Below are positions 6,147 to 20,138 of a stretch of 30,844 nt of DNA, in pieces. The DNA lies in IMG/VR virus record IMGVR_UViG_3300043803_000818, positions 1 to 30,844 of that record. One strand, written 5' to 3'. Both the position numbers and the translations under genes were made by a program. The notes under the pieces were generated by a model. That model was not told the DNA's origin. It ran no database searches and saw nothing but the letters and a program-made list of their open reading frames with translations. Each line of letters opens with the position of its first letter. Positions within the stretch are counted from its first letter, which is position 1. The DNA comes from a virus.

Positions 6147-6689
6147 ATGCGTCAGAGTGCTTGGATGCACCTGACAGCAGAGCAGCAGCGGCTTGCCGAG
6201 CAGGCGATGGAGATCGTGCCGAAGGCGATTGTGGCCTTCCGGTGCCGGTATCCGTCGCTCCGGCGGCAGGTGGCTGCGATAGATGCCACGAGCGTTGCCT
6301 ACCTTGCCATCTGCAAGGCGGCGGTCACCTATGACCCGGCACAGTCGAAGGTCACGACCTACTTCTCGATGGCGATTCGCAACGCACTGCTCAAGGAGAT
6401 CGACAAGAACCGCCGGATGCGGTACGACTCGCCGGATCGGGTGCCGATGGAGTTGGCGGAGGCACTGTCGGCCAGCAAGCAGCACGGGTTTTCGACCCGC
6501 ATCCAGACGGCCATCGCCCGGCTTCCCGCCAAGTCCCGCAGACTGATCCACTTGCGGTTCTTTCGTGGACTCAGCCTGCGGGAGATTGGCGAGCAGTCCG
6601 GGTGCGACCCGCGAACTATCCAGCGGCGACTGGCCGTCGCTTTGGACTGTCTGGGAACGCTTTTGCAAAGCGAGCCGCTTGGGCCTTGA
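6147..6689 (+). CDS. Phage-encoded sigma-70-family RNA polymerase factor
   Basis: 180 residues from the ATG at 6147 (an in-frame TTG at 6138 and ATG at 6165 are alternatives; no strong ribosome site picks among them). Region 2 is visible as SVAYLAICKAAVTYDP...VTTYFSMAIRNALLKEID, matching the core-binding and -10-binding helices of sigma factors. Region 4 is visible as a C-terminal helix-turn-helix: ARLPAKSRRLIHLRFF followed by SLREIGEQSGCDPRTIQRRL. Regions 1 and 3 are missing, as in compact ECF-like or phage factors. It would redirect host RNA polymerase to phage promoters. It is the last gene of the rightward block and overlaps the 3' end of the oppositely oriented recombinase by 74 bp. Confidence 0.85.
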   Translation: MRQSAWMHLTAEQQRLAEQAMEIVPKAIVAFRCRYPSLRRQVAAIDATSVAYLAICKAAVTYDPAQSKVTTYFSMAIRNALLKEIDKNRRMRYDSPDRVPMELAEALSASKQHGFSTRIQTAIARLPAKSRRLIHLRFFRGLSLREIGEQSGCDPRTIQRRLAVALDCLGTLLQSEPLGP

Positions 6690-9989: not shown

Positions 9990-10240
9990 GTACCGTTCTC
10001 CGTAGGAACCTCTGGAAGATCGCACCAGTACCGCACTCGCGGCACCATTCTGGGCGGCAGCGTGCCGGGCTTGGCCGACCCGTACACGACTGACGGCCAG
10101 TCGAAGTCAAAGACCGTGCCGTCCCAGTACGCCATCTCGATGTAGCCATCGTCCTGTGCGACAAGCACACGACGCTGGCTGTCGGGCAGGCACTTCCGTT
10201 CGCCCTGCTCGACTTCATGCCACACAATTCCGATGCACAT
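9986..10240 (-). CDS. Hypothetical protein between AAA and VWA genes
   Basis: 84 residues starting MCIGIVWHEVEQ, rich in aromatic residues and with conserved-looking DGYIEMAYWDGTVFDFDW and VRYWCDLPE segments, which suggest a small beta-rich fold. AGGAGG lies 6 nt before the ATG. Its stop overlaps the VWA start, and it lies 20 bp downstream of the AAA ATPase stop, so it is part of the same transcription unit. Cys2 immediately after the start Met recalls N-terminal nucleophile enzymes, but no amidotransferase motifs follow and I do not assign it. Confidence 0.65.
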   Translation of the reverse strand: MCIGIVWHEVEQGERKCLPDSQRRVLVAQDDGYIEMAYWDGTVFDFDWPSVVYGSAKPGTLPPRMVPRVRYWCDLPEVPTENGT

Positions 10241-10260
10241 GGTTGCCTCCTGTGTGCAGT

Positions 10261-11364
10261 TCACGACTGAACCAACGCCATCAACTTCGCCAGCACATCC
10301 TTCGGTGGGTTCCAGCCGTCCGGTCGCACGCCACCCTTGCTGACGGGGTTCCAGAACGAACGGAACTGCATGAGGAACGACTCGATCTCCTGTTCACCGA
10401 TGGTGATGAACGCCTCCGCCGCACGAGTCCACCGCTCCTTGCTGGTGTTGTCACGCAGGGACTTCACCAGACCAGTGAGGAAGCAGATGTTGGCGTCTGG
10501 CCGACGCTCGTACTTGTAGTCCTCAGCACCGGACAGGTACGCCTCCGGGTTGAGCAGGTCGAGCCGGTGCCAGTACCGGAGGAACTCGCCGCCCACCTCC
10601 GCACCGACGCAGCCAACGGCGAGCGGCCGGTAGATGGGGTCTTTCTGCTCGTACCCGCAGGCACCCGCCGCAGCGAAGCACTTGGCGAGGAACGTCCAGG
10701 TCCGCAGGTTGGGGAACGCCATCGTCTCGTCGTCCTGCGGCAACTTCTCCCGAGCGTCGGGGGCCGAGCGGAGGAACGCCTCGACCAGCGCGCCGAACTG
10801 CGGGAGGAAGTCGGTCCAGTGTTCCGGCACGATGGGGAACGCAGGTGCCGTCCACTGGCACCCGGCACGCAAGCCGGTGAACCAGTGTTCGTAGTCCACC
10901 TCCCAAGGGAAGTGAACGAACCGTGCCCGCATGGCTGGTGCGAGGGGCACCGCATTGGGGCACAGTTCCGGTGGGTTGCAGGCACCGACGATGATGGTCG
11001 ATGCAGGCATCACGTAGTCACCGACCCGTCGCTCCGACAGGACGGAGAGCAAGCCACCCTGCGTGGCAGTTGGTACGTTGGTCACCTCGTCCACGAGGAC
11101 GAGAGACTTGCCGTCTTTGGTCTTGTCCCACAGCGAGGTCGGCATCATGCGAACGACGCCAGCCTTGTGGTCAGGGATAGGATAGCCAGAGAAATCTTCG
11201 GGCAGGTGGGTGGCACCGAGCAGCGGGACGAACGTCCGCTCCAGTGCCGCAGCCAGCGCCTCCCACGTTGAGGACTTGCCGACGCCAGTGCCACCCGTGA
11301 CCAGCACGGGGGCGACCTGACAGGCGAGGAACGCAGGGGTGTTGCCGAGTGTGGTGCGAGACAT
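10261..11364 (-). CDS. MoxR-type AAA+ ATPase
   Basis: 367 residues. Walker A is GGTGVGKS (24-31), Walker B is LVLVDE (88-93), with a sensor/arginine-finger region ending in NPPE...APAMRARFVHFPWEVD around 135-165. The ATPase core is near the N-terminus, followed by a helical C-terminal domain, as in MoxR-like proteins. MoxR ATPases couple ATP hydrolysis to remodelling or metal loading of partner complexes and usually sit beside VWA-domain genes, as here. AGGAGC precedes the ATG by about 9 nt; upstream in-frame codons run into a hairpin and are unlikely to be coding. The gene follows a repeat-plus-hairpin leader (11400-11455). Confidence 0.85.
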   Translation of the reverse strand: MSRTTLGNTPAFLACQVAPVLVTGGTGVGKSSTWEALAAALERTFVPLLGATHLPEDFSGYPIPDHKAGVVRMMPTSLWDKTKDGKSLVLVDEVTNVPTATQGGLLSVLSERRVGDYVMPASTIIVGACNPPELCPNAVPLAPAMRARFVHFPWEVDYEHWFTGLRAGCQWTAPAFPIVPEHWTDFLPQFGALVEAFLRSAPDAREKLPQDDETMAFPNLRTWTFLAKCFAAAGACGYEQKDPIYRPLAVGCVGAEVGGEFLRYWHRLDLLNPEAYLSGAEDYKYERRPDANICFLTGLVKSLRDNTSKERWTRAAEAFITIGEQEIESFLMQFRSFWNPVSKGGVRPDGWNPPKDVLAKLMALVQS

Positions 11365-11399
11365 GACAGGAATGCTCCTGAGTAGGGGACCAATGGGAC

Positions 11400-11432
11400 G
11401 GGGACGGGGCGGCACGATGCTACCCCGTCCCC
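11400..11432 (-). other. Hairpin after repeat copy 1, leader of AAA ATPase gene
   Basis: Perfect 10-bp stem GGGGACGGGG/CCCCGTCCCC with a 13-nt loop, 8 nt downstream (minus strand) of repeat copy 1 and 35 nt upstream of the AAA ATPase start codon. No T-run follows, so it is less terminator-like than the hairpins at 16922 and 17843. Confidence 0.75.
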
Positions 11433-11440
11433 CTACAAAC

Positions 11441-11455
11441 CAGACTCCGCAGCGG
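11441..11455 (-). repeat. Repeat copy 1 (CCGCTGCGGAGTCTG)
   Basis: Exact copy of the 15-bp element, read on the minus strand. It is part of a 39-bp stretch (11441-11479) repeated exactly at 13900-13938, which includes the TGA stop of the upstream gene. See the finding on the repeat family. Confidence 0.9.
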
Positions 11456-11474
11456 GAAAACTGCGGGAAAAACG

Positions 11475-11804
11475 TCAGCCGCCGACGCAGATCACGAACG
11501 TCGGGGAGGCGGCAGGTGCGGCAGCGGGTTCGCTGCGGCGAGCGGTCGGCTGGGCAGAGGGCCGGGTGATCTTGGCCCTCCGCTTAACCTTCCGCTTGGC
11601 GGGGACGATCCCGCTGCGCCTGTTCCGCATGCCCTTCAACTTGGGCAGGACGAGCCCCCGCTGGGCCAGCGTCTTGAGCCGGTCGTTGAGCATGTATGGA
11701 CTGATGCCAGTGAGTTCCAAGAACTCCTTGAAGTGCAGGCCGCAGGTCAGGGCGTCCTTGTACTCGCTGATGAACTTGCTGTAGTCGAGGCGAAGCGTAC
11801 GCAT
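11475..11804 (-). CDS. Small putative winged-helix DNA-binding protein
   Basis: 109 residues. The N-terminal 60 residues contain a helix-turn-helix-like pattern, FKEFLELTGISPYMLNDRLKTL followed by AQRGLVLP (split about residues 25-54), as in winged-helix transcription regulators. Residues 58-85 are very basic (KLKGMRNRRSG and KRKVKRRAKITR), suited to nucleic-acid contact, and the tail is Ala/Pro-rich. AAGGAG 7 nt before the ATG supports the start. Its stop lies inside the 39-bp duplicated segment. It may regulate the leftward operon; the target is unknown. Confidence 0.6.
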   Translation of the reverse strand: MRTLRLDYSKFISEYKDALTCGLHFKEFLELTGISPYMLNDRLKTLAQRGLVLPKLKGMRNRRSGIVPAKRKVKRRAKITRPSAQPTARRSEPAAAPAASPTFVICVGG

Positions 11805-11832
11805 AACACTCTCCTTAGTGGGATGGGATGGG

Positions 11833-12711
11833 TCAGACAGCCGCAGCCAGCAGCCGATTGACGGCGACTGCCTGCTTCACTTGGTCGATGGCCGCAGTCA
11901 GTTCGGGCAGCGGTCGTCCGAGAACCTGCTCGTACAACCGCACCTTCTCCAGAAACCTGTCGGCCCTGTTGATCCGCACGTTTATGGAGCGGTCGGCCAT
12001 GCCGCCGGTCGCCTCCATCACGTCGGTCATGATCTCCGCCAGACCGGCCTGCACTTCCGAGCCGAGCCGGTCGAGGACGTGCATCACCGTGTCGGGATCT
12101 GATGCGATCTCGACTTGGTGAACGGTGAATCGCGGGCCGTCTGCGTGCGGTCCGAGCAGCAGGCTTGAGAACGTGCGGAAGTCCTCAAGCGTCTGGCCCA
12201 GCATGAACCACACGCCGCCGTCGTCCTTCAGTGGCGTGGCCTTCCAGTGGCGGAGCATCTTGACCACCACCTGACCGACCACACTGGACGGCAGGTAGTC
12301 CCGCTGCTGCACGACCGCAGGGTCGAGCGAGGCGAGAACCTGTGAGCCGCGTGGCCCGGCGGAGTCGTACTCCAGGATGCCCACGCCCCAGTTCGTGTCG
12401 ATGAGGGCCGAGAACAGGAAGCGGTACTCGTTCTGCGACTGGCCCGGCACCACACGCACCACCTCAAACGAGGCGGGGTCGTCCAGTTGCCGCACCACGT
12501 TGGGTTGCCTGCGGATGCGGCCGTACAGGCTGTCGGCTACGTCCTTCATGCAGTCCCGCAGCACGGTCGTGCGAGCGGGCTGGGAAGGGACGAACTGCGC
12601 GCAGCGTACGGCATCCGCCGCGTAGTAGAGGCGGTCGCGATTGACCGTCTTGGTGTTGAGGATGGCGATGCCGCCGAGCCCCGACCCGATGGTGAGAGTT
12701 GTCGGTGTCAT
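11833..12711 (-). CDS. Phage protein resembling DUF6744 family
   Basis: 292 residues. The pattern LKDDGGVWFMLGQTLEDFRTFSSLL (split about 161-185), followed by a helical C-terminal half with a final long helix (INRADRFLEKVRLYEQVLG), resembles the DUF6744 family of roughly 300-residue phage proteins, which share an R-x-GGVYF motif. The assignment is from memory and moderate. Function of that family is unknown. AAAGGAT lies 8 nt before the ATG. It stands within the leftward block between a small DNA-binding candidate and a 58-residue protein. Confidence 0.65.
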   Translation of the reverse strand: MTPTTLTIGSGLGGIAILNTKTVNRDRLYYAADAVRCAQFVPSQPARTTVLRDCMKDVADSLYGRIRRQPNVVRQLDDPASFEVVRVVPGQSQNEYRFLFSALIDTNWGVGILEYDSAGPRGSQVLASLDPAVVQQRDYLPSSVVGQVVVKMLRHWKATPLKDDGGVWFMLGQTLEDFRTFSSLLLGPHADGPRFTVHQVEIASDPDTVMHVLDRLGSEVQAGLAEIMTDVMEATGGMADRSINVRINRADRFLEKVRLYEQVLGRPLPELTAAIDQVKQAVAVNRLLAAAV

Positions 12712-12722
12712 GGTGGATCCTT

Positions 12723-12899
12723 TCAGTGGGTGATGACTTGGTGCTGTGCCTTGACGAACCGTCGTTGCAGTACGGCGAACGCCGCCGACTGCTCGGGTTC
12801 ATCGAACTGCTCACGGTCCTCCGCACTCTCGTGCAGGGCCGTGATGATGAGGTCGATCTCGCGTGGCGTGAGGGTCACGGTAGTATTCGGGTATGGCAT
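12723..12899 (-). CDS. Small hypothetical protein (58 aa)
   Basis: 58 residues, starting MPYPNTTVTLTPREIDLIITALHESA; the central part is an amphipathic acidic helix with the C-terminus basic (VLQRRFVKAQHQVITH). The sequence TPREIDLIITALHE is typical of small phage proteins that begin with a beta strand and a long helix. AGGAGGCGGGGT before the ATG is a strong ribosome site; an upstream in-frame codon is less likely. No function known. Confidence 0.7.
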   Translation of the reverse strand: MPYPNTTVTLTPREIDLIITALHESAEDREQFDEPEQSAAFAVLQRRFVKAQHQVITH

Positions 12900-12929
12900 A
12901 CCCCGCCTCCTGTGTGAGTGTACATACAT

Positions 12930-13094
12930 TCAGTTCTCCGTCAACGGTGCGACGGGCCGCGAGCCTGTGTTCCAGTTGTCATCCGGATGCCTGAGCATCC
13001 CGGTGTAGACGACGACCTCACGCTCGTCGCTCTCGTCGAACATGGCGTCGGGGAACACGGCGAGTACGCGATCCATCAGTTCTTGCAGCGTCAT
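12930..13094 (-). CDS. Small hypothetical protein (54 aa)
   Basis: 54 residues: MTLQELMDRVLAVFPDAMFD, then an acidic strand-rich part and a flexible tail. The ATG has AAGGAG 8 nt upstream and lies inside the 3' end of the LexA-like gene, overlapping it by 77 bp. Residues such as FPDAMFDESDEREVVVYTGM resemble small phage proteins with a helix followed by a beta-hairpin. No function assigned. Confidence 0.65.
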   Translation of the reverse strand: MTLQELMDRVLAVFPDAMFDESDEREVVVYTGMLRHPDDNWNTGSRPVAPLTEN

Positions 13095-13323
13095 ACTTCT
13101 GCTCCTTGAGGTAAGACTTCCAGTCGAACGACCACGCACGGGCACCGATAACTTGGGCATGGCCCTTGAGTGCGATGCGCCGGGCGAGGTACTGCAACCA
13201 GCCGAGCCCGGTCCACCCGAAGTGGGCGGCGATCTCCCGGTAGGAAGGCTGGTATCCATTGGCGTCAATCGAGCGGGCGATAAGGGTGAGGATCTCTCGC
13301 TCGCGTTCTGTCAGTTCAGCCAT
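13018..13323 (-). CDS. LexA-like winged-helix DNA-binding protein
   Basis: 101 residues. Residues 3-50 match the LexA N-terminal winged helix: LTEREREILTLIARSIDANGYQPSYREIAAHFGW (split), i.e. helix 1, NGYxPSxREI and the recognition helix. There is no LexA peptidase domain (no Ser-Lys dyad), so it cannot self-cleave. It probably binds an operator as a phage regulator. GGAGGG lies 5 nt before the ATG. The C-terminal 25 residues are Arg-rich and lie over the start of the next gene, so the exact end of the functional protein is uncertain. The start overlaps the stop of the upstream gene. Confidence 0.75.
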   Translation of the reverse strand: MAELTEREREILTLIARSIDANGYQPSYREIAAHFGWTGLGWLQYLARRIALKGHAQVIGARAWSFDWKSYLKEQKYDAARTDGSRTRRVPRRHVRRERRA

Positions 13324-13576
13324 CGGCCCTCCTCGACAGCCGCTCGCAGGCGTCGTCGCTGAAGGTGTGTGCCATTACTCCCTCGCTCGCAATGCGGCAC
13401 ACCCACAGGTCGTAGTCGTCCGTGCCCCTGACGCACACGGCGATGTTCAGTCCGTCGTGTTCCTCGACGTACAGGCGCTCGCCGTTCGTGAGTTGCACGA
13501 CATGGGCGATGCGATCCCGAAAGTTGGGAGCACGGCGGACAGAGGACGGCGGGTACTTGGCATCTGCAAAAGGCAT
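13316..13576 (-). CDS. Small hypothetical protein (86 aa)
   Basis: 86 residues, mixed alpha/beta, with MPFADAKYPPSSVRRAPNF at the N-terminus and strand-rich segments GERLYVEEHDGLNIAVCVRG and YDLWVCRIAS. The second of two close ATGs is chosen because GGAGG lies 7 nt before it, while the first is only a base or two away. Its stop overlaps the next gene's start. No family recognised. Confidence 0.65.
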   Translation of the reverse strand: MPFADAKYPPSSVRRAPNFRDRIAHVVQLTNGERLYVEEHDGLNIAVCVRGTDDYDLWVCRIASEGVMAHTFSDDACERLSRRADG

Positions 13577-13578
13577 GG

Positions 13579-13764
13579 TCATTCCTCCTTTGGTGTTACA
13601 CATCGAACGTCGATGCTGAAGTAGTTGGGGAATCGCTTTGCGAACCGCCGCATCACGACGCGGATCGGCCCGCACGAATGGGACGTGAAGTACATAGTTC
13701 TTTCGGGCTTGCTCTCCTCCTGTTGCACGGCAATCCGATACAGTCGCTTGGCTCTTGGCTGCAT
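13579..13764 (-). CDS. Small basic hypothetical protein (61 aa)
   Basis: 61 residues, strongly basic (RAKRLYRIAVQQEESKPER, VMRRFAKRFPNYF). GAGGA precedes the ATG by 7 nt. The last codons (PKEE then TGA) form the ribosome site AAAGGAGG of the next gene, so the two are tightly linked. It could bind nucleic acid by charge; no motif supports a specific role. Confidence 0.65.
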   Translation of the reverse strand: MQPRAKRLYRIAVQQEESKPERTMYFTSHSCGPIRVVMRRFAKRFPNYFSIDVRCVTPKEE

Positions 13765-13779
13765 TTGGGGTTCCTCTAG

Positions 13780-13872
13780 TCAGTCGAGTTCCGCCCACCG
13801 TGCCAGTGCCTTCATGGCGACGTAGCACATGGCGAGGAAGATTTCGATCTCCGCATGGGTCCAGTGGTGCAT
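13780..13872 (-). CDS. Micro-ORF, 30 aa
   Basis: A 30-residue frame starting MHHWTHAEIEIFLAMCYVAM and ending RWAELD. It has one of the best ribosome sites in the region (CAAGGAGGCAAGCC before the ATG) and lies exactly between a repeat element (13900-13914) and the next gene, where a gene is expected. Its stop comes 16 nt before the next start. The predicted peptide is a single amphipathic helix with a hydrophobic face (IFLAMCYVAMKALA), perhaps membrane-associated or a regulatory peptide. The strong initiation site is the main evidence. Confidence 0.65.
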   Translation of the reverse strand: MHHWTHAEIEIFLAMCYVAMKALARWAELD

Positions 13873-13899
13873 GGCTTGCCTCCTTGCTTGCCGTAGAAA

Positions 13900-13914
13900 C
13901 AGACTCCGCAGCGG
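13900..13914 (-). repeat. Repeat copy 2 (CCGCTGCGGAGTCTG)
   Basis: Exact copy of the 15-bp element within the second 39-bp duplicate (13900-13938), which covers the stop of the clamp-like gene. Unlike the other copies, no hairpin follows; only 27 nt separate it from the start of the 30-residue gene. Confidence 0.9.
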
Positions 13915-13933
13915 GAAAACTGCGGGAAAAACG

Positions 13934-14671
13934 TCAGCAGATGGGCGGCAGGCACACCGACCAGTCGTCGGGCTCCGTCACTGCCACTGCCACCTGCTCG
14001 TCGTCCATCAGTTCCGGGACTGGTGCAGGCTGCGTTGCCTTCCTGCGGGAGCGAGTGGCGGGCTCGCCCTTCGCTGCCTGCACTGCACCCGGTCGGGGCG
14101 GAAACGTAGGAGCGGCCTCGTCGTCCGCAGCCAGCGGCATGATGGCGAAGCGGGCAACGTGTCCGTCCTCGCCCAGCGTGGAAGCAAACACGCAGGACTG
14201 CGAGTCCTTGACGAACAGCGTGATTCCCTTGTGCTTGTAGCGGTCGTCGTTCATGGCGTGCGACAAGGCACACAACTTGCCGAGCAGGGATGCATCCAGG
14301 TTGACGGACACATACCCCTTCGGGCTGGCGTGAATCGTCATCACCTTCTCGTAGTCAGGGAAACGTCCGCTCGTGTTGAGCGTGACGCTGCCACTGACGC
14401 CGCCACGAAACTCGTCGCCGTCAAACCGCACCCCGAGCGGGTGCGAGAACGCCTTGACTGGCGGCGACGACAACTCCTTCGCGTCCGCAAGGGAGTCCAG
14501 TGCGATGCCGTCGTCGTCCTTCCAGTGGACGCTGGCAAGGATGCGGCCGTCGGTTGCCGTCATGCTGGCTGTCTTGCCGTCGCTCACGCACTTGATGCAG
14601 CCCAGTGCGTACCGTGCCTGCTCCGGGTCGCAGCACTTGGCGAGTTGCTTGATGAACGCTGGTATCTTCAT
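13934..14671 (-). CDS. Beta-sliding-clamp-like protein (DnaN type)
   Basis: 245 residues that resemble the bacterial DNA polymerase beta clamp: TASMTATDGRILASVHWK (about 34-51) matches the clamp ATDG motif, SGRFPDYEKVM (about 101-111) matches the conserved PDYxxV element, and CVFAST...HVARFAIMPL (about 164-180) matches the C-terminal strand ending in MPL/MPM. The length suggests a two-domain clamp plus a 60-residue disordered tail (Ala/Pro, SRRKATQ). Clamps tether polymerase to DNA; no phage polymerase is in this window, so it may act with one elsewhere or with the host enzyme. The ATG is preceded by GAGGTTCCC. Moderate confidence because the clamp fold is read from a few motifs. Confidence 0.65.
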   Translation of the reverse strand: MKIPAFIKQLAKCCDPEQARYALGCIKCVSDGKTASMTATDGRILASVHWKDDDGIALDSLADAKELSSPPVKAFSHPLGVRFDGDEFRGGVSGSVTLNTSGRFPDYEKVMTIHASPKGYVSVNLDASLLGKLCALSHAMNDDRYKHKGITLFVKDSQSCVFASTLGEDGHVARFAIMPLAADDEAAPTFPPRPGAVQAAKGEPATRSRRKATQPAPVPELMDDEQVAVAVTEPDDWSVCLPPIC

Positions 14672-14693
14672 GGGAACCTCGTGATGAAAGGGA

Positions 14694-14728
14694 TGCGGGG
14701 CCGGTGACCCAGTGCCACCGGCCCCGCA
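14694..14728 (-). other. Hairpin after repeat copy 3, leader of clamp-like gene
   Basis: Perfect 13-bp stem (TGCGGGGCCGGTG with CACCGGCCCCGCA) and 9-nt loop, 5 nt from repeat copy 3. It lies 22 nt upstream of the clamp-like start codon, leaving just room for the ribosome site. It is the most stable hairpin in the set, and no T-run follows. Confidence 0.8.
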
Positions 14729-14733
14729 GAAAC

Positions 14734-14748
14734 CAGACTCCGCAGCGG
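14734..14748 (-). repeat. Repeat copy 3 (CCGCTGCGGAGTCTG)
   Basis: Exact copy, 5 nt after the TGA of the amidotransferase gene (minus strand). Confidence 0.9.
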
Positions 14749-14753
14749 CGAAA

Positions 14754-15608
14754 TCAGATGGCGTCGTGCAGAGCCTCGATGCCGTAGTGGCCGAGAATGT
14801 CCTGCACTTCCGACAAGCACTTGCGACTGAACCCGTAGGTGAGCAACTCCTCCACGCGGAGGTCGGTGTAGAACGCCGTCTCGCGGTCGTCCTCCTCCTG
14901 CTCGTCGGGCAGGCGGTCGTACGCCGTGCGAGTGGCAGCGGCGGACGCGGCGTTGTCCTCGTCCACGTACTTCCACTTGCCATCCGACGCCTCGATCCAC
15001 GAACGCTCGGTCTTGGGCTTCGTCGTGGTGCGAGATGTCAGGCCGAAGCCGATGCTGCGGTAGTACGATCCCTCGTGCGAGTCGTTGCTGTACCAGTGAC
15101 CGTCACGCGACCAGTCACCATCGTCCTCGTTCCAGATGCAGTAGTCGCCGTCCGCCCGCAGGAACACGAACTTGCTGCCGGAGTGGGCAAGTTGCTGCGT
15201 GTACACAACCTCGTTGCGTCGGTAGAAGTCCGAGTCCCTTGCGTGCAGCGGCTTGAGCACCAACTCGTTGAAGTGCCAAGTGTCACTGCGATCCTTGTCC
15301 ACGTCGCAATGGATGGAGATCACGCCGTTGTGGATCACGGCGAGCGAGTCGCTCACCATGAACGGGTGACAGTTGCCCGTGTCCTTCTTGCCGTGCGTGG
15401 CCCATCGGAAGTGGATGATGGCCTGCTTGTCGGCGTACGGCTCAAGGGCTTCGCGGAACTCCTCAAAGTTGCCGATGCCGCAGCGGGTGACGAGCGTGCC
15501 GTCAACGACGACGGCGAACCCCCACGAATCGTCGTTCACGGCGAAGCCGTTGCGGTAGGCGGACCAGTCGGGCGTGGTGGTGGCGGGCTTGTAGATGGCG
15601 AGGCACAT
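14754..15608 (-). CDS. Class II glutamine amidotransferase
   Basis: 284 residues. Cys2 directly after the initiator Met (MCLAIYKP) is the expected N-terminal nucleophile once Met is removed. HFRWATHG (66-73) and HNG (93-95) match the glutamine- and oxyanion-binding elements of class II (Ntn) glutaminases. This fold frees ammonia from glutamine and passes it to a partner synthetase. Residues about 97-284 are a lineage-specific extension with Asp/Trp-rich segments. The ATG has AAGGAG 8 nt upstream. Its partner is probably the amidoligase gene immediately upstream in the same operon (37 bp gap). Phage copies of this pairing have been noted in surveys of amidoligases. Confidence 0.8.
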   Translation of the reverse strand: MCLAIYKPATTTPDWSAYRNGFAVNDDSWGFAVVVDGTLVTRCGIGNFEEFREALEPYADKQAIIHFRWATHGKKDTGNCHPFMVSDSLAVIHNGVISIHCDVDKDRSDTWHFNELVLKPLHARDSDFYRRNEVVYTQQLAHSGSKFVFLRADGDYCIWNEDDGDWSRDGHWYSNDSHEGSYYRSIGFGLTSRTTTKPKTERSWIEASDGKWKYVDEDNAASAAATRTAYDRLPDEQEEDDRETAFYTDLRVEELLTYGFSRKCLSEVQDILGHYGIEALHDAI

Positions 15609-15645
15609 GCAGGAATCTCCTTGTGAGTGTGAGTGAAACCAGGAA

Positions 15646-16890
15646 TCAGGCACCGACGACGGACGACGTACGGATCATGTTGAACACGGGCGACCGCTCC
15701 TTCGGGTTGGCGATGCTCGCCGGGAGCGGACTGTTGCTGCGGTAGCCGCCGCTGATGAGCGGATGCGACAGCAGGAACTCATGCAGGAAGCGGTACGCAC
15801 TGCGATTGACCGCCACAAAGTTGCGGAAGTTGACGAAGTGCAGCGGGTCGAGGGACGACTCGACCGCACCGAACCCGTGTGCTGCCTGCTCGCAGAACTT
15901 GACAGCCGCAACGGCGAACTCGTGGTTCTTGAGGATCGCTCGGCCGTACAGGTTGCTCTTGAACAGGCGGAACTCGACGGTGGTGTTCGTCACGTTCAGC
16001 ACTTCGTAGCGGTCGCTGTTCTCCGTCTGGGTCAGTTGCTTGGTGCGGAACTTGTTGAATCCCGCAGGGCGACAGGCGATGGCTTCCAGGAACGCACGGT
16101 TGGGCTCGGCGTTCATGAACACCAGCAACTTGCCCAGCGTGAGCGGGCCGATGGCCGCTTTGGACAGGTGGATGTGGTGACCAACGTCCTCGCCCATGTC
16201 CCACGCCGAGCAGCGTCCGTTGCCGAGCGTCTTGAACGCCCCGAAGATGCCGTAGACCTGCTCGGTCGTGAGCGGGACCGTGACCAACTCAAAGCCGCCG
16301 CTGCCGTACTCGTCGAGCGAGCCGTCGCGTTTGGCGATGGCGCACTTGCGGTTGCGGGTGAGCGGATTGAGTTTCCGATACAGGTCGTTGACTTGGGCGA
16401 GCGTGTGTTCCACGTCGCTGAAGTCCTCGTCGTCGGAGTACATCTCGATCTCGTGACCGGCGTACATGTACGCGGGGCCACGAGCCGGGTCAGCCTCCCA
16501 GCCATGCACGCGGTGAGCCCGCGTGCCGTAGTCGTCGAGGCTGTTGTCGAAGTCCGTGTGGTGGCAGTCGCAGTCGTCGTCGTAGCACTCGCCGTTGGAG
16601 CAGCGGGTGCAGCCGTTGGAGTCCTCCCCGTCGCAGTCGTACCCGTCCGAGTCGTACCCCTCTCGGTCGTACCCGTTGCGGTCGTAGCCCGCGTAGCAGT
16701 ATCCCTCCGAGTCCAGCCGCTCCCCGTCGCGTGTGAGTCGGGTGGTGGGGCTGAACTCCGTCTCGGTGGTTTGGTGGATGCCCTCACTGTCGAACCCGTT
16801 GGGGTCGTACAGCGTGCCCGTCTCGTTGTGGATGCCGGTGGACTCATTGAACCCGTACGCGTCGTGCAGGACTTCGTTCTCGTCGCTCAT
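15646..16890 (-). CDS. Amidoligase-family (COOH-NH2 ligase) protein with Y-D-x-x-G repeats
   Basis: 414 residues. Core motifs of the phage-type amidoligase family occur in order: GHEIEM (145-150), AIAKRDGSLDEYGSGGFELVT (split about 184-204), GHHIHLS (237-243) and VEFRLF (305-310). These enzymes are glutamine-synthetase-like ATP-dependent ligases that join a carboxylate and an amine, making amides or isopeptides. The N-terminus carries a run of GYDRNGYDREGYDSDGYD-type repeats (about 68-86) and a Cys-rich stretch (CTRCSNGECYDDDCDC, about 94-109), perhaps a metal site. ATP-grasp or GS roles are inferred. The start ATG has GAGGAG 7 nt upstream. It is cotranscribed with the amidotransferase downstream (37 bp gap). 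Confidence 0.8.
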   Translation of the reverse strand: MSDENEVLHDAYGFNESTGIHNETGTLYDPNGFDSEGIHQTTETEFSPTTRLTRDGERLDSEGYCYAGYDRNGYDREGYDSDGYDCDGEDSNGCTRCSNGECYDDDCDCHHTDFDNSLDDYGTRAHRVHGWEADPARGPAYMYAGHEIEMYSDDEDFSDVEHTLAQVNDLYRKLNPLTRNRKCAIAKRDGSLDEYGSGGFELVTVPLTTEQVYGIFGAFKTLGNGRCSAWDMGEDVGHHIHLSKAAIGPLTLGKLLVFMNAEPNRAFLEAIACRPAGFNKFRTKQLTQTENSDRYEVLNVTNTTVEFRLFKSNLYGRAILKNHEFAVAAVKFCEQAAHGFGAVESSLDPLHFVNFRNFVAVNRSAYRFLHEFLLSHPLISGGYRSNSPLPASIANPKERSPVFNMIRTSSVVGA

Positions 16891-16921
16891 GTCTCGCTCC
16901 TCAGCGAAGGTGAAAAAGAAA

Positions 16922-16946
16922 GGGCCGCCCCACGACGGGACGGCCC
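16922..16946 (-). terminator. Terminator-like hairpin in leader of amidoligase gene
   Basis: On the minus strand GGGCCGTCCC/GGGGCGGCCC (10 bp with one wobble) and a 5-nt loop are followed by TTTCTTTTT: a textbook intrinsic terminator. It lies about 31 nt before the amidoligase start and 11 nt after repeat copy 4, so it is inside the operon; the reading of the operon past this point would need antitermination, attenuation or inefficiency. Confidence 0.75.
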
Positions 16947-16957
16947 ATGCCGAAAAC

Positions 16958-16972
16958 CAGACTCCGCAGCGG
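16958..16972 (-). repeat. Repeat copy 4 (CCGCTGCGGAGTCTG)
   Basis: Exact copy just after the TGA of the 42-residue gene, 11 nt before the terminator-like hairpin at 16922. Confidence 0.9.
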
Positions 16973-16976
16973 CGGA

Positions 16977-17105
16977 TCACCGCTGCTTTTGCTTGCGGCG
17001 AGTGGCTCGCTTGGCGTGCTTGCGTGCCACTCGCAGTCGCTCCTCCTCCTTGACGCGTTCAGCCTTGACCAGTGACCACCACTGGTCGTTCCAGCGGTTG
17101 CCCAT
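16977..17105 (-). CDS. Small Lys/Arg-rich protein (42 aa)
   Basis: 42 residues: MGNRWNDQWWSLVKAERVKE, then a highly basic helix ending ATRRKQKQR. The ATG overlaps the TGA of the upstream 71-residue gene (TGATG) and AGGAGG sits 4-5 nt ahead. Too short for automated calls, but start coupling and repeat copy 4 right after its stop both support it. A small basic helix could bind RNA or DNA; unassigned. Confidence 0.7.
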   Translation of the reverse strand: MGNRWNDQWWSLVKAERVKEEERLRVARKHAKRATRRKQKQR

Positions 17106-17320
17106 CAGTCCTCCTGCCAGGAGGGGAACGCGATGGGGCCGGGATAGCCGCCACCTACGCAGTCCCGAAGGAAACTGGCGTAGCGTTCCAGTTCATGCGA
17201 GAGGCGCATGGCCTGCTCCTGCCAGGGGATACCCTCGCCAACGTCCTCGCCGCACAGGATGCGATGGCTGGCAAGGATGGAATCGCGGTACGAAACCGCC
17301 ACCTTGTAGGCGTCGGCCAT
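17105..17320 (-). CDS. Small hypothetical protein (71 aa)
   Basis: 71 residues: helical N-terminal half (VAVSYRDSILASHRILCGED) and a second helix (QEQAMRLSHELERYASFLRDCV), then a short flexible tail. GGAGG lies 8 nt before the ATG. Its stop overlaps the next start. No family recognised. Confidence 0.65.
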   Translation of the reverse strand: MADAYKVAVSYRDSILASHRILCGEDVGEGIPWQEQAMRLSHELERYASFLRDCVGGGYPGPIAFPSWQED

Positions 17321-17322
17321 GT

Positions 17323-17493
17323 TCAGCCCTCCTTCTTCACGAGGTCGGCCACTTCACGACGCTCACGCGGGGTGAGCGTGCGGAGGTCGGCCAGCAGGTG
17401 ACGCTGCGACTTCGCACCCACTTCGCTTGCCACACGGGCGAGCGAGACGAAGTGCATGAGGCGGGGGTTGGTGGTGGTGACATGCGTGCGCAT
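17323..17493 (-). CDS. Small hypothetical protein (56 aa)
   Basis: 56 residues starting MRTHVTTTNPRLMHFVSL, ending in a helix with RTLTPRERREVADLVKKEG. AGGAG 7 nt before the ATG fixes the start; the 13 upstream in-frame codons cover the hairpin of repeat copy 5 and are not used. The stop precedes the next start by 2 nt. Unassigned. Confidence 0.65.
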   Translation of the reverse strand: MRTHVTTTNPRLMHFVSLARVASEVGAKSQRHLLADLRTLTPRERREVADLVKKEG

Positions 17494-17515
17494 GGGAACT
17501 CTCCTGTGAAATGCG

Positions 17516-17550
17516 ACGGGGCCAGCCGCCACCGTGACGACTGGCCCCGT
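17516..17550 (-). other. Hairpin after repeat copy 5
   Basis: 10-bp perfect stem ACGGGGCCAG/CTGGCCCCGT with a 15-nt loop, in the leader of the 56-residue gene; 15 nt from repeat copy 5. Confidence 0.75.
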
Positions 17551-17565
17551 TCGCAGTGTGAAAAT

Positions 17566-17580
17566 CAGACTCCGCAGCGG
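17566..17580 (-). repeat. Repeat copy 5 (CCGCTGCGGAGTCTG)
   Basis: Exact copy 4 nt after the TAA of the 73-residue gene; the sequence after it (ATTTTCA) is also shared loosely with copies 3 and 4 (GGTTTC, GGTTTTC). Confidence 0.9.
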
Positions 17581-17584
17581 CGAT

Positions 17585-17806
17585 TTACCGGGTCAGCGGG
17601 TTGACATCGGCCTCCTCCGCAGGCAGGCCGTCGCGGAACGCCCGCACCACGTCGTTGCTGTGCTCGTGGCCGGGAATCGTGGCCCGTGCCATGCGGACCT
17701 GCTTCGTGTCCAGGTACGGGCCGTACACGCGACCGTCGCTCTTGAGGTTGACGAGGTAGAAGCAGCCGTCCTTGCCGGTGAACTGGGCGAGAGGGGAACG
17801 GGGCAT
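17585..17806 (-). CDS. Small hypothetical protein (73 aa)
   Basis: 73 residues with FYLVNLKSDGRVYGPYLDTKQV forming a probable beta-sheet, then an acidic helix with RAFRDGLPAEEAD. AAGGAG is 7 nt ahead of the ATG. It sits between a structured leader (17843-17919) and repeat copy 5. No family recognised. Confidence 0.65.
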   Translation of the reverse strand: MPRSPLAQFTGKDGCFYLVNLKSDGRVYGPYLDTKQVRMARATIPGHEHSNDVVRAFRDGLPAEEADVNPLTR

Positions 17807-17842
17807 GGTGAACTCCTTGTGAAACAGGGACTAGAAACACAA

Positions 17843-17870
17843 ACGCCCACCGCGAAGTTGCGATGGGCGT
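17843..17870 (-). terminator. Terminator-like hairpin in leader of the 73-residue gene
   Basis: On the minus strand ACGCCCA/TGGGCGT (7 bp) with an inner CGC/GCG pairing, followed by TTGTGTTTCT. It resembles an intrinsic terminator and lies inside the operon about 36 nt upstream of the 73-residue gene's ATG, 3 nt after the larger fold at 17873-17919. Confidence 0.6.
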
Positions 17871-17872
17871 AG

Positions 17873-17919
17873 GTGAGGGGGCGGGCTACGAACCCGCCCG
17901 AGCCGTCGTCGGCCCTCAC
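17873..17919 (-). other. Branched RNA fold in leader, superficially tRNA-like
   Basis: A 7-bp outer stem GTGAGGG (17913-17919 side)/CCCTCAC encloses a small CCG-loop-CGG hairpin and a 6-bp GGCGGG-TTCGTAG-CCCGCC hairpin. The outer stem, T-arm-like hairpin and 47-nt size recall a truncated tRNA. The T-loop lacks the conserved A at position 58, no anticodon arm is present and no CCA follows, so it is not a tRNA. Most likely a stable leader structure. Confidence 0.5.
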
Positions 17920-17923
17920 TGGT

Positions 17924-17938
17924 CAGACTCCGCAGCGG
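17924..17938 (-). repeat. Repeat copy 6 (CCGCTGCGGAGTCTG)
   Basis: Exact copy 5 nt after the TGA of the 142-residue basic gene, 4 nt before the branched fold at 17873-17919. Confidence 0.9.
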
Positions 17939-17943
17939 CGGAA

Positions 17944-18372
17944 TCAGCGAATCTGGGCGGCAACCTTGCGGATCTCGTCGCTCCGGATCACGTTGTTGAT
18001 CGCCGCGAACAACTCCGCCTTGCGGGCGTTGTCACCGGCCGGGAGCCACGCCGTGAGCGGTCCGATCTGCACGATCTGGCCCTTCACGCCCTTCTTCGTG
18101 ACGTGATCCTTGACGCTCCACGCGGGGCGTGCCTTCTTCACCTTCGCGGGCTTCTCCACCGGCACGACCGCTGCGGCAGCGGGCTTGGCCTTCTTCGCCT
18201 TCGCGGGCTTGCCAGTGGCCTTCTGCGACTCCCGCCACTTGCGGAGAGCCTCCGGGTTGCCCTTCCGCTTCTTCACGGGGGCGGGCACGGCCATCGTCTG
18301 CAACTCCGCGACAGCGGCGGCGTGGGCAGCGGAGTCGGTCGTGGACAGGAACTTCAAGAACTGGGCAATCAT
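17944..18372 (-). CDS. Lys/Ala/Pro-rich, histone H1-like basic protein
   Basis: 142 residues. After an N-terminal helix (MIAQFLKFLSTTDSAAHAAA) comes a long basic stretch (about 34-86) with repeated KPAKAKKAKP and KPAKVKKARP blocks, then a globular C-terminal part (PAWSVKDHVTKKGVKG...NVIRSDEIRKVAAQIR). The Lys/Ala/Pro repeats resemble bacterial histone H1-like tails. Such proteins bind DNA non-specifically and could condense or regulate phage DNA. GAGGAG precedes the ATG by 5-7 nt; the 21 upstream in-frame codons lie over the leader hairpin. Unassigned to a family. Confidence 0.7.
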   Translation of the reverse strand: MIAQFLKFLSTTDSAAHAAAVAELQTMAVPAPVKKRKGNPEALRKWRESQKATGKPAKAKKAKPAAAAVVPVEKPAKVKKARPAWSVKDHVTKKGVKGQIVQIGPLTAWLPAGDNARKAELFAAINNVIRSDEIRKVAAQIR

Positions 18373-18415
18373 GGGATTCTCCTCATGGAAAGGAACACAC
18401 CGAACCAGTGACGAA

Positions 18416-18428
18416 CGGCAACGTGCCG
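18416..18428 (-). other. Hairpin after repeat copy 7
   Basis: 5-bp stem CGGCA/TGCCG with a 3-nt loop, 11 nt from repeat copy 7. Weaker than the other leader hairpins. Confidence 0.55.
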
Positions 18429-18439
18429 CCGCCACAATT

Positions 18440-18454
18440 CAGACTCCGCAGCGG
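18440..18454 (-). repeat. Repeat copy 7 (CCGCTGCGGAGTCTG)
   Basis: Exact copy 4 nt after the TGA of the 59-residue gene. Confidence 0.9.
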
Positions 18455-18458
18455 CGAT

Positions 18459-18638
18459 TCACGCCACCATCAGCACCGGGAACCGGGACTCGATCACGAC
18501 CTCACCGGCAGGGTCGTACAACACGAACAGCCGCACGCCGTCCGCGTTGTCGTTGATGTACCAGCGGGCCTTCCGCTCGCAGGGAAAGACGTAGGCACGA
18601 CGCTCGCCGCTGGCGTTGATGGACACGACGCAGAACAT
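18459..18638 (-). CDS. Small hypothetical protein (59 aa)
   Basis: 59 residues beginning MFCVVSINASGERRAYVFPC. Alternating strand pattern and the aromatic WYINDN and LFVLYDPAGEVV segments suggest a small beta-sheet protein. GGAG 5 nt ahead of the ATG supports this start; the longer in-frame extension runs through a hairpin and repeat and is not favoured. Unassigned. Confidence 0.65.
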   Translation of the reverse strand: MFCVVSINASGERRAYVFPCERKARWYINDNADGVRLFVLYDPAGEVVIESRFPVLMVA

Positions 18639-18669
18639 GGGACGCTCCGGGTGAGGGGGACGGGACGGA

Positions 18670-18684
18670 GGCCGAACGTCGGCC
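18670..18684 (-). other. Hairpin after repeat copy 8
   Basis: 6-bp perfect stem GGCCGA/TCGGCC with 3-nt loop CGT (minus strand), 10 nt from repeat copy 8. Copy 7's hairpin has the same 3-nt loop. Confidence 0.65.
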
Positions 18685-18694
18685 AGCCGAAAGA

Positions 18695-18709
18695 CAGACG
18701 CCGCAACGG
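18695..18709 (-). repeat. Repeat copy 8, variant (CCGTTGCGGCGTCTG)
   Basis: Two-base variant of the element (CCGTTGCGGCGTCTG) 5 nt after the TGA of the 71-residue gene; same placement as the others. The variant shows the element is under selection or evolving, not a recent exact copy. Confidence 0.8.
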
Positions 18710-18714
18710 CGGAA

Positions 18715-18930
18715 TCAGCCGAAAGCGACTTGATCGGCTTCGTGGGTCGAGCCGTCCGGGCGGCGGATCGTGTGGCCGAACTCCCCGCTACGGCACAACT
18801 CACGAGCAGCAGCCGCCGCGCTGTCGTAGTCGGGGAACGATTCCCGGCTGACTTCGACACGACGCTCCACCCAAGTACCGTCGAACATGCGGTAGCCGGG
18901 AATCGTCCAGTTGTGTTCCAGAACCCACAT
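18715..18930 (-). CDS. Small hypothetical protein, first gene of the leftward operon
   Basis: 71 residues beginning MWVLEHNWTIPGYRMFDGTW; a beta-rich N-terminal half and an acidic helix with DYDSAAAAARELCRSGEFGH. GAGAGGAAGG lies about 8 nt before the ATG. It is the first gene transcribed leftward after the divergent control region, so it would be expressed early. The frame extends upstream to 19143 but through the hairpin, repeat and probable control region. Unassigned. Confidence 0.65.
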   Translation of the reverse strand: MWVLEHNWTIPGYRMFDGTWVERRVEVSRESFPDYDSAAAAARELCRSGEFGHTIRRPDGSTHEADQVAFG

Positions 18931-18955
18931 GCTGCACCTTCCTCTCGTGCCGGTC

Positions 18956-18976
18956 ACGACGGTCACTCGCCGTCGT
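18956..18976 (-). other. Hairpin after repeat copy 9, leader of first leftward gene
   Basis: 7-bp perfect stem ACGACGG/CCGTCGT with a 7-nt loop, 15 nt from repeat copy 9, and 25 nt before the ATG. Confidence 0.7.
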
Positions 18977-18991
18977 CGATCCGACACAAGG

Positions 18992-19006
18992 CAGACTCCG
19001 CAGCGA
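18992..19006 (-). repeat. Repeat copy 9, slightly shortened, in leader of first gene
   Basis: Fourteen of fifteen bases of the element (TCGCTGCGGAGTCTG, first base differs). No stop codon precedes it, so the element does not need an upstream gene; it belongs to the leader of the downstream gene. Confidence 0.8.
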
Positions 19007-19041
19007 ACGGACCGCGATGATTGAGCGTTTCGGCAGGCCGG

Positions 19042-19273
19042 TTCACGGCCGCCCTCGACAGCGTGAAGCGGAAGCCTTTGGAAATGCTGGGGTTGGGGCG
19101 GCGTATAGATGGCACGCCCCCGAGCCCCCCCCAGCCGCGTCACGTATCAGTTACGTTCCCCTCCTGGATTTTTTCCCAAAATAGATCGACCCCTGCCCGC
19201 TGGGGGGTTGCTATACGCCCGTCCAGGCTTATGCTGTCCACCTGTCCAGCATCCCAATGAGAGAGAGGAACCG
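19042..19273. promoter_or_regulatory. Divergent control region
   Basis: Non-coding DNA between the leftward operon and the rightward SSB operon. A CTATACGCC motif lies on the plus strand at 19211-19219 and on the minus strand at 19100-19108, facing outward. ACGTA-TCAGT-TACGT (19142-19156) is a short perfect dyad. An AT-rich stretch GATTTTTTCCCAAAATAGATC (about 19168-19188) interrupts the GC-rich DNA. A possible rightward promoter is TTGCTA (19208-19213), 16 bp, TATGCT (19230-19235), 38 nt before the SSB ATG. No leftward -35 is clear. Likely holds both promoters and an operator. Confidence 0.55.
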
Positions 19274-19627
19274 ATGATCGAAGCGACCGTGACTGGCAAT
19301 GTGGGCAAGGTGAACGAACTCAGGATCACCAAGAGCGGGAAGGCGATGCTGACCTTCTCGGTGGCCTCGACGGAGAAGAAGGACGGGCCGACGACGTGGG
19401 TGGAGGTGGTCTGCTTTGACGAGCAGGCGGAGACATGCTCTCAGACGCTCCAGAAGGGCCAGAGAGTCGTTGTCTCCGGCCGGGCTGGTCTGGAGACGTA
19501 CGAGAAGAAGGACGGCTCACAGGGCTTCTCGTTGCGTCTAATGGCGAACGAGGTGGGTGTCAGCCTGCGGTGGCCCAAGCGGGAGCCTGCTGGCGTGGGT
19601 GCGGATGACGAGATTCCCTTCGCATGA
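19274..19627 (+). CDS. ssb: Single-stranded DNA-binding protein
   Basis: 117 residues of bacterial SSB type: an OB-fold core opening MIEATVTGNVGKVNELRIT, with LTFSVASTEK, TTWVEVVCFDEQAE and RVVVSGRAGLETYE, and the acidic C-terminal tip DDEIPF (111-116) that docks partner proteins. It coats single-stranded DNA during replication and recruits enzymes through that tip. AGAGAGGAACCG precedes the ATG. It is the first gene of the rightward operon; its stop overlaps the next start (ATGA). Short length compared with cellular SSBs is usual for phages. Confidence 0.9.
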   Translation: MIEATVTGNVGKVNELRITKSGKAMLTFSVASTEKKDGPTTWVEVVCFDEQAETCSQTLQKGQRVVVSGRAGLETYEKKDGSQGFSLRLMANEVGVSLRWPKREPAGVGADDEIPFA

Positions 19628-19914
19628 GCGTCGAGGAACTCGACCGTATCGCCGCCGCGTTGCCGGAGTGGGAAAGGATGCCCCCTCCGGCTTCCGGCGT
19701 TGAGGCGGACCGGCTGGCCCTTGTGGCCCGAGTGGAGGCGGAATCGGCGGCGGTCTACCGGCAGCACGAGTCCCGCATGGCGAACCTGCGGAGCATGGAG
19801 CGGACGGTGTGGATCCTGGTCATAGCCTTGCTGGCCGGGACGGTGGCGGCGGTGGTGGCGGAGGTGTTCTCCGGCCCGCCTGCGAACCCCGAGTTCTTGA
19901 GGGAGAAGCCATGA
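19624..19914 (+). CDS. Small membrane protein with coiled-coil N-terminus
   Basis: 96 residues: residues 28-60 form a charged helix with coiled-coil character (DRLALVARVEAESAAVYRQH), followed by a clear membrane segment at 61-80 (TVWILVIALLAGTVAAVVAE) and a short tail. The ATG overlaps the SSB stop. Topology is likely N-in. No family assigned. Confidence 0.65.
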   Translation: MSVEELDRIAAALPEWERMPPPASGVEADRLALVARVEAESAAVYRQHESRMANLRSMERTVWILVIALLAGTVAAVVAEVFSGPPANPEFLREKP

Positions 19915-20138
19915 CCCTTCCCTGCGAGCGAACGCTGGCGGTCCTGCGCGCCCGCAACTTCCTGGTGCGGCTCTCCAACGTCTATGAGGAGGGCGGCATC
20001 AAGGGGATCCGCACGGAGGTTCGCCAAGAGGCTAGGGCTGTTCTGCGACATTTCCCGCACTGGTTTGATATGGGGCGTGCTGACTGCTTTGACGAGCAGG
20101 CCGCAATGCTGTGGGCCAACGAGGAGGACAAGCCATGA
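19911..20138 (+). CDS. BPSL0761-family protein
   Basis: 75 residues: MTLPCERTLAVLRARNFLVRL, then EARAVLRHFPHWFDM near 45-58. The MTxPxERTxAVLxxRxFL opening and the RxLLRHFP motif match the BPSL0761 family of small bacterial and phage proteins of unknown function. The ATG overlaps the previous stop (ATGA). Very likely cotranscribed with ssb. Confidence 0.75.
   Translation: MTLPCERTLAVLRARNFLVRLSNVYEEGGIKGIRTEVRQEARAVLRHFPHWFDMGRADCFDEQAAMLWANEEDKP

Follow-up and report, generated by a model that had tools for sequence, protein, structure and literature searches.

The window analysed here, a virus record (IMG/VR record IMGVR_UViG_3300043803_000818), is 30,844 bases long. It contains a leftward operon that encodes a MoxR-type AAA ATPase, a LexA-type winged-helix DNA-binding protein (13018-13323), a DUF2201 metallopeptidase/VWA protein, a serine recombinase and small proteins, as well as a protein whose sequence reads as sliding-clamp-like. 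The 15-mer CCGCTGCGGAGTCTG occurs nine times on the minus strand in the gaps of this operon, and seven of the copies are exact (Table 1). Each copy stands at the head of 1-5 genes and is part of a larger element. From 5' to 3' the element comprises stem I, with the repeat as its 3' arm, the linker AGTCTGNNTTNYR, which is conserved between the two stems, a variable GC-rich stem II, a ribosome site and the ATG. The distance from repeat to ATG is usually 70-90 nt, with the hairpin in between.

When up to 3 mismatches were allowed, 13 matches to CCGCTGCGGAGTCTG were found in the window compared with a mean of 2.8 in shuffled sequence, and no shuffle reached 13. On this comparison and on the copies in related contigs, a chance origin was rejected. 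The mismatch scan and the gene map agree with a preliminary description of the sequence, which had listed nine minus-strand copies, all intergenic and in one orientation, the ninth with no gene before it. The description had placed seven copies either 4-5 or about 20 nt after a stop codon. Six copies were found to start 4-5 nt past the stop, and copies 1 and 2 start 19 nt past it. It had also pointed out a symmetric core, CCGC-T-GCGG. Only CCG...CGG is symmetric throughout, because related phages carry CCGATCCGG and (N)CGATGCGG; the sequence CCGATCCGG in contig L166 speaks against a CCGC-T-GCGG hairpin of 4 bp.

Viral contigs were scanned for the 15-mer, which generated 115 stretches. Almost all single-copy stretches looked unrelated. 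About two dozen metagenomic phage contigs had 3-12 copies in the same kind of operon, with position and orientation conserved, as a search of related phages had been expected to reveal if the repeat were a selected element. In five records that are whole or nearly whole (G019, G011, G012, G018 and G005), all exact and 1-mismatch copies lie in one operon of ~6-10 kb on one strand, and the few remaining copies have 2 mismatches. With up to 2 mismatches, 24 contigs yielded 225 copies, 204 in leaders and 21 inside genes; part of the latter are 2-mismatch matches that may be due to chance. The in-gene copies inspected are on the same strand and mostly in the frame Ala-Ala-Glu-Ser. A mobile repeat was rejected, as the clear copies keep a single orientation and a single operon and the inspected in-gene copies keep the strand. 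An opposite-strand match in L090/L107 is within a gene. The repeat starts 3-5 nt past the stop codon in 106/167 cases with a clear upstream gene, and copies with a stop codon 16-19 nt away are common.

Known phage records gave no nucleotide match, and for the terminase the only matches were Arthrobacter phages, at 23-24% identity. The 29 single matches in host genome contigs looked like chance. Three similar copies, each followed by GGGTCCCCGCCTGCGCGGGGACGAC, occur in a Hyphomicrobiales metagenome-assembled genome (L233, minus-strand offsets 107, 2930 and 4998) and are probably a repeat of that chromosome with no relation to the phage element. The core of the repeat contains GGAG. In three contigs (L071 at ~3062, L109 at 2558 and L119 at 8237) a copy directly adjoins the GTGATG of a 42-residue gene, so the GGAG may serve as the ribosome site of that gene.

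A logo of 150 distinct copies shows the 15-mer followed by N-N-T(74%)-T-N-Y(92%)-R(94%). Upstream of the 15-mer, positions -10 and -9 are G/C and positions -4 and -3 are T. The conserved pyrimidine-purine (Y-R) step is 6-7 nt past the repeat, directly before stem II. The conserved sequence is one contiguous 15-bp block, not two boxes near -35 and -10. The bacterial consensus pause has G at -10/-11, T at -3, G at -2, Y at -1 and G at +1. The Y-R step resembles a transcription start and this pause alike, and the logo therefore does not decide between a promoter and elongation control.

Stem I would be formed by the repeat and the sequence just upstream. The mean score for upstream complementarity to the repeat was 11.2, compared with 8.0 at 213 other stop codons in the same phages (0/2000 resamplings), and scores of at least 12 were found at 49% of repeat sites versus 17% of other stop codons. 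Pairing takes place in several registers, as the examples in Table 1 illustrate, and the upstream stop codon is often within the loop. Stem I emerged only when several registers were allowed and was absent from a fixed-register column comparison. Fixed-column pairing of the upstream bases with stem II likewise gave no strong signal. Multi-register pairing is something that a fixed DNA-protein contact would not need.

Stem II is under selection as RNA. Among 105 distinct leaders the mean folding z was -2.9, and 88% of leaders beat their shuffles by more than 1 standard deviation. The main stem starts mostly 15-26 nt after the repeat start, most commonly at 20-21, and ends just 5' of the ribosome site. 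In the 12 MoxR leaders, 6/14 stem II pairs changed on both sides, giving 16 compensatory cells compared with 4.8 after shuffling (0/500) and none when the partner was slid 2-3 columns. In 17 first leaders, 7/17 pairs changed on both sides, with 22 cells compared with 8.3, above all shuffles. These shuffle counts are not probabilities because the leader sequences are related, but the slide control agrees with them. Covariation of the folded leaders, proposed in the preliminary description as a check, is thus present in both sets. The proposal of a selected RNA or DNA element gains support from these compensatory changes and from the conserved position and orientation. A GC-rich hairpin after eight of the nine window copies had also been reported and is present, the exception being the copy at 13900. 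Stem I overlapping the repeat, the Y-R step, a phage sigma factor and the alternative cores of distant relatives had been missed.

Some stem II hairpins resemble intrinsic terminators. Terminator-like sites exceeded the shuffled numbers in the window (13 vs 6.2), L076 (10 vs 3.7) and L175 (13 vs 5.4), and were mainly on the transcribed strand. Several consist of stem II followed by a U-tract, as in copy 4. This excess suggests that read-through has to be arranged. The repeat is 5' of the terminator-like hairpin and not 3' of it, and an antiterminator therefore fits better than a terminator-promoter pair. Separately, some stem II hairpins, in copy 6 of the window, L057 (12366), L088 (2713) and L166 (365), match a tRNA acceptor stem and T arm in outline and bases, with the other arms absent; the sequence is GTGAGGG...GGTTCGACTCC...CCCTCAC. 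ARAGORN found no tRNA gene.

Table 1. Positions of the repeat copies, their stems and the sigma factor gene in the window.
Feature	Positions	Strand	Remark
Repeat copy 1, exact	11441..11455	-	leader of MoxR-type AAA ATPase gene
Repeat copy 2, exact	13900..13914	-	weak stem after it, with the ribosome site in its loop
Repeat copy 3, exact	14734..14748	-	
Repeat copy 4, exact	16958..16972	-	
Repeat copy 5, exact	17566..17580	-	
Repeat copy 6, exact	17924..17938	-	
Repeat copy 7, exact	18440..18454	-	
Repeat copy 8, CCGTTGCGGCGTCTG, 2 mismatches	18695..18709	-	
Repeat copy 9, TCGCTGCGGAGTCTG, 1 mismatch	18992..19006	-	first leader, divergent region
Stem I, copy 1, CCGCAGT-TTTCCC-GCTGCGG	11447..11466	-	identical in copy 2, 13906-13925
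Stem I, copy 4, GCAGCGGTG-ATC-CGCCGCTGC	16966..16986	-	
Stem I, copy 7, TGGTGGCG-TGAAT-CGCCGCTG	18449..18469	-	stop TGA in loop
Stem I, copy 9, TCGCGGT-CCGTTC-GCTGCGG	18998..19017	-	
Stem II, copy 1	11400..11432	-	compensatory changes in 12 MoxR leaders
Stem II, copy 3	14695..14728	-	
Stem II, copy 4, then TTTCTTTTTC	16922..16946	-	terminator-like
Stem II, copy 5	17512..17555	-	
Stem II, copy 6, shape of tRNA acceptor stem plus T arm	17873..17919	-	terminator-like second hairpin after it, 17843-17870
Stem II, copy 7	18408..18435	-	
Stem II, copy 8	18666..18689	-	
Stem II, copy 9	18944..18990	-	covariation in 17 leaders
Phage sigma-70-type factor, regions 2 and 4	6150..6689	+	possible trans-acting partner if the repeats were promoters

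Distant relatives were reached via MoxR homologs. In these phages the layout is kept while stem I and the linker differ. The core is CCGATCCGGAGTC in L166 (7 copies), (N)CGATGCGGAGTC in L167, CCGCTGAAAA...TTTTCAGCGG in L177 and CCCCTATTTTTCAGGGGCTGGAGAACACTAGTAG in L178. In L171-L176, whose MoxR proteins are 55-57% identical, CCCCTTG-TTTT-CAGGGG is followed by YCGGCGAGTTCTTTGTAGA and then stem II. Pattern scans with the other cores added two new contigs. In the L171-type clade, pairing in stem I dropped from 88.6% to at most 67.5% when the partner was slid, and an L171 variant, CCCTTG...CAAGGG, pairs perfectly.

Comparison of neighbouring genes indicated that the leader GGGGCCAGTCGTCACGGTGGCGGCTGGCCCC is kept behind one upstream family and is followed by at least 10 downstream families. 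Other leaders travel with the gene that follows them, and the gene before them varies. The view that the repeat belongs to the leader of the downstream gene is therefore too strong as an exclusive rule. Cassette break points also occur between the hairpin and the start codon. Since leaders have been re-assorted between genes, the operon exchanges genes at the repeats or close to them.

Sigma region 4 was found in 15/15 records and region 2 in 14/15. The full sigma protein was present in 17/22 related records, and the other five records are all fragmentary, at 15-45 kb. In the window the sigma gene (+) converges with the serine recombinase gene (-), their ends overlapping by ~70 bp (6616-6689). 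The divergent region (19007-19273) has blocks kept in relatives, namely ACGTA-N5-TACGT, TTCACG...CGTGAA and a poly-G stretch, which are likely operators or an origin. Tandem-like repeats of 15 bp at 16613-16672 are within the coding sequence of an Asp/Gly/Tyr-rich protein of 414 residues.

Among the catalogued elements searched, the element matches none; a search of 10000-20000 against Rfam, to E = 5, returned only two weak, unrelated matches, with no check on whether put is among the Rfam families. A close likeness is to the put RNA of phage HK022, in which two stem-loops in early-operon leaders are proposed to act in cis, as RNA, and so bring polymerase through terminators (PMC9378689). Two stem-loops are likewise predicted here, from sequence, in leaders of an early phage operon. 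The put RNA is ~70 nt and occurs twice per genome, with an early promoter ahead of each copy (PMC9378689). Here 4-12 copies per locus are situated in gene gaps, the inter-stem linker is conserved, stem II is free in sequence, and no sequence relation to put was found. Suppression of termination by put works through the zinc-binding domain of the polymerase beta' subunit. In phage lambda each early operon carries a single nut site, whose sequence-specific hairpin is bound by N. Common to both is a conserved short motif with a hairpin after it, which here would likewise form in nascent RNA, but the phage element is neither a single site per operon nor a sequence-specific N-bound hairpin.

The start-associated sequences (SAS) of cluster K mycobacteriophages are a 13-bp GGGATAGGAGCCC located 3-9 nt from the start codon, and the extended form (ESAS) has putative -35/-10 hexamers (PMC3203893, PMC11373665). 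Like the element, they are multi-copy, in one orientation and before a subset of non-structural genes, with upstream inverted repeats and a consensus that varies by subcluster (PMC3203893, PMC11373665, PMC12699233). The element has another sequence, a greater distance to the ATG, an intervening hairpin and no such hexamers, and the SAS/ESAS label was dropped on sequence and start-codon distance. Cluster O phages have palindromic 17-bp repeats that are genome-wide and without orientation, while cluster A stoperators are oriented with transcription (PMC4351075). Both are short repeats that occur by the dozen in gaps, and the phage repeat shares with stoperators that its sites are short, asymmetric and oriented with transcription; neither the cluster O repeats nor the stoperators are followed by a covarying hairpin. 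T7-type phage promoters also have a strongly conserved one-orientation block before genes, followed by a T-rich stretch and a purine start. No single-subunit RNA polymerase (PF00940) was matched in 22 records, although no control genome matched either, so the search lends a T7-promoter label no support and does not count against it. Of the analogues named in the preliminary description, the put/nut kind is favoured, even though the definition of put does not apply; the stoperator and SAS/ESAS labels are unsupported.

The better-supported reading is that the element works at the RNA level in one way or another, and taken as a whole this is reasonably probable. Its most likely form, which we regard as quite possible, is a cis-acting, put/nut-like RNA that controls transcription elongation, with one copy 5' of each hairpin or terminator. 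One such RNA element would be made for each gene group of the leftward operon, and both stems would act as RNA. After making stem I and the single-stranded linker, RNA polymerase would slow at the T-G-Y-R step, as at the bacterial consensus pause, before stem II, which would begin ~20-26 nt past the start of the repeat and in some leaders be an intrinsic-terminator-like hairpin. Polymerase would then be set to pass stem II, either by the RNA alone or by a bound factor from phage or host, so that each gene group would have its own checkpoint. Several results weigh against this. About half of the clade A sites lack a strong stem I. Stem I covariation in the distant clade equals that of shuffles (0.120 vs 0.120, 19 copies), so a DNA dyad is possible there. 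The majority of stem II hairpins have no good U-tract and are therefore not classical terminators. The two put sites per genome compare with 4-12 copies here (PMC9378689). No NusG/RfaH-type protein was detected in 15 records, with the control matching in 10 genomes; no dedicated search for N- or Q-type antiterminators was made. An RfaH/ops or LoaP system was rejected, there being no NusG paralog in these records.

The main rival is an array of promoters at which host RNA polymerase, carrying the phage sigma factor, would start at about position 21 of the element, with stem II as a 5'-terminal stabilising hairpin. We consider this doubtful. A sigma factor with regions 2 and 4 conserved is encoded, as such promoters require, a T-rich stretch and then Y(-1)R(+1) stand where the start would fall, stem II begins around there, and every copy heads a group of 1-5 genes. 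The ESAS of cluster K phages was later proposed to contain promoters (PMC11373665). However, the conserved block is contiguous, without two boxes, and has no conserved -35 element 35 bp upstream. Phage sigma factors that need no -35 box exist. The sigma gene also occurs in phages with a different core, and stem I is enriched although the transcript would not include it. Bases 15-20, ahead of the supposed start, are paired within stem II of some leaders, and a terminator-like hairpin right behind a start makes little sense. It is unlikely that the element acts instead in RNA processing or translation, with an RNase or RNA-binding protein cutting or binding the repeat and stem I to give separate messages with a protective stem II, or controlling re-initiation after the upstream stop. 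The repeat is 3-5 nt past the stop in ~60% of copies, the stop codon is often in the stem I loop, and GGAG in the core and the end of stem II just before the ribosome site would fit. Yet the first copy has no upstream gene, a stop 16-19 nt away is common, and no partner enzyme was identified.

A phage repressor, for example the LexA-type protein encoded in the operon, might bind the repeats and block elongation as at stoperators, and many short gap sites in one orientation relative to transcription would suit this. It is improbable, as the sites are limited to one operon, and RNA-level covariation and the enrichment of stem I are left unexplained. That the repeats are kept because gene cassettes exchange through them is very improbable. 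Gene content between repeats is highly variable, leaders are re-assorted, a serine recombinase is encoded nearby, and recombination at intergenic repeats has been inferred in cluster O phages (PMC4351075). Break points between hairpin and start codon do not fit, and a near-invariant 15-mer with covarying hairpins requires another function. Cassette exchange is probably a by-product.

We tentatively suggest that these phages have a new class of RNA control, a two-stem nascent-RNA checkpoint before each early-operon gene group, with one plan, lineage-specific cores and elongation control that involves no known antitermination protein. The antitermination RNAs known from phages number one or two per genome. 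If the suggestion is true, the 4-12 copies of an operon, each standing before a different hairpin, would make up a natural library in which terminators and read-through signals follow a single rule, and the cores of four or five lineages would be ready variants for testing which bases matter. If the repeats are promoters instead, they would be the recognition sequence of an uncharacterised phage sigma factor family. An RNA checkpoint of this kind would show how phages hold freely exchanged small genes under common control.

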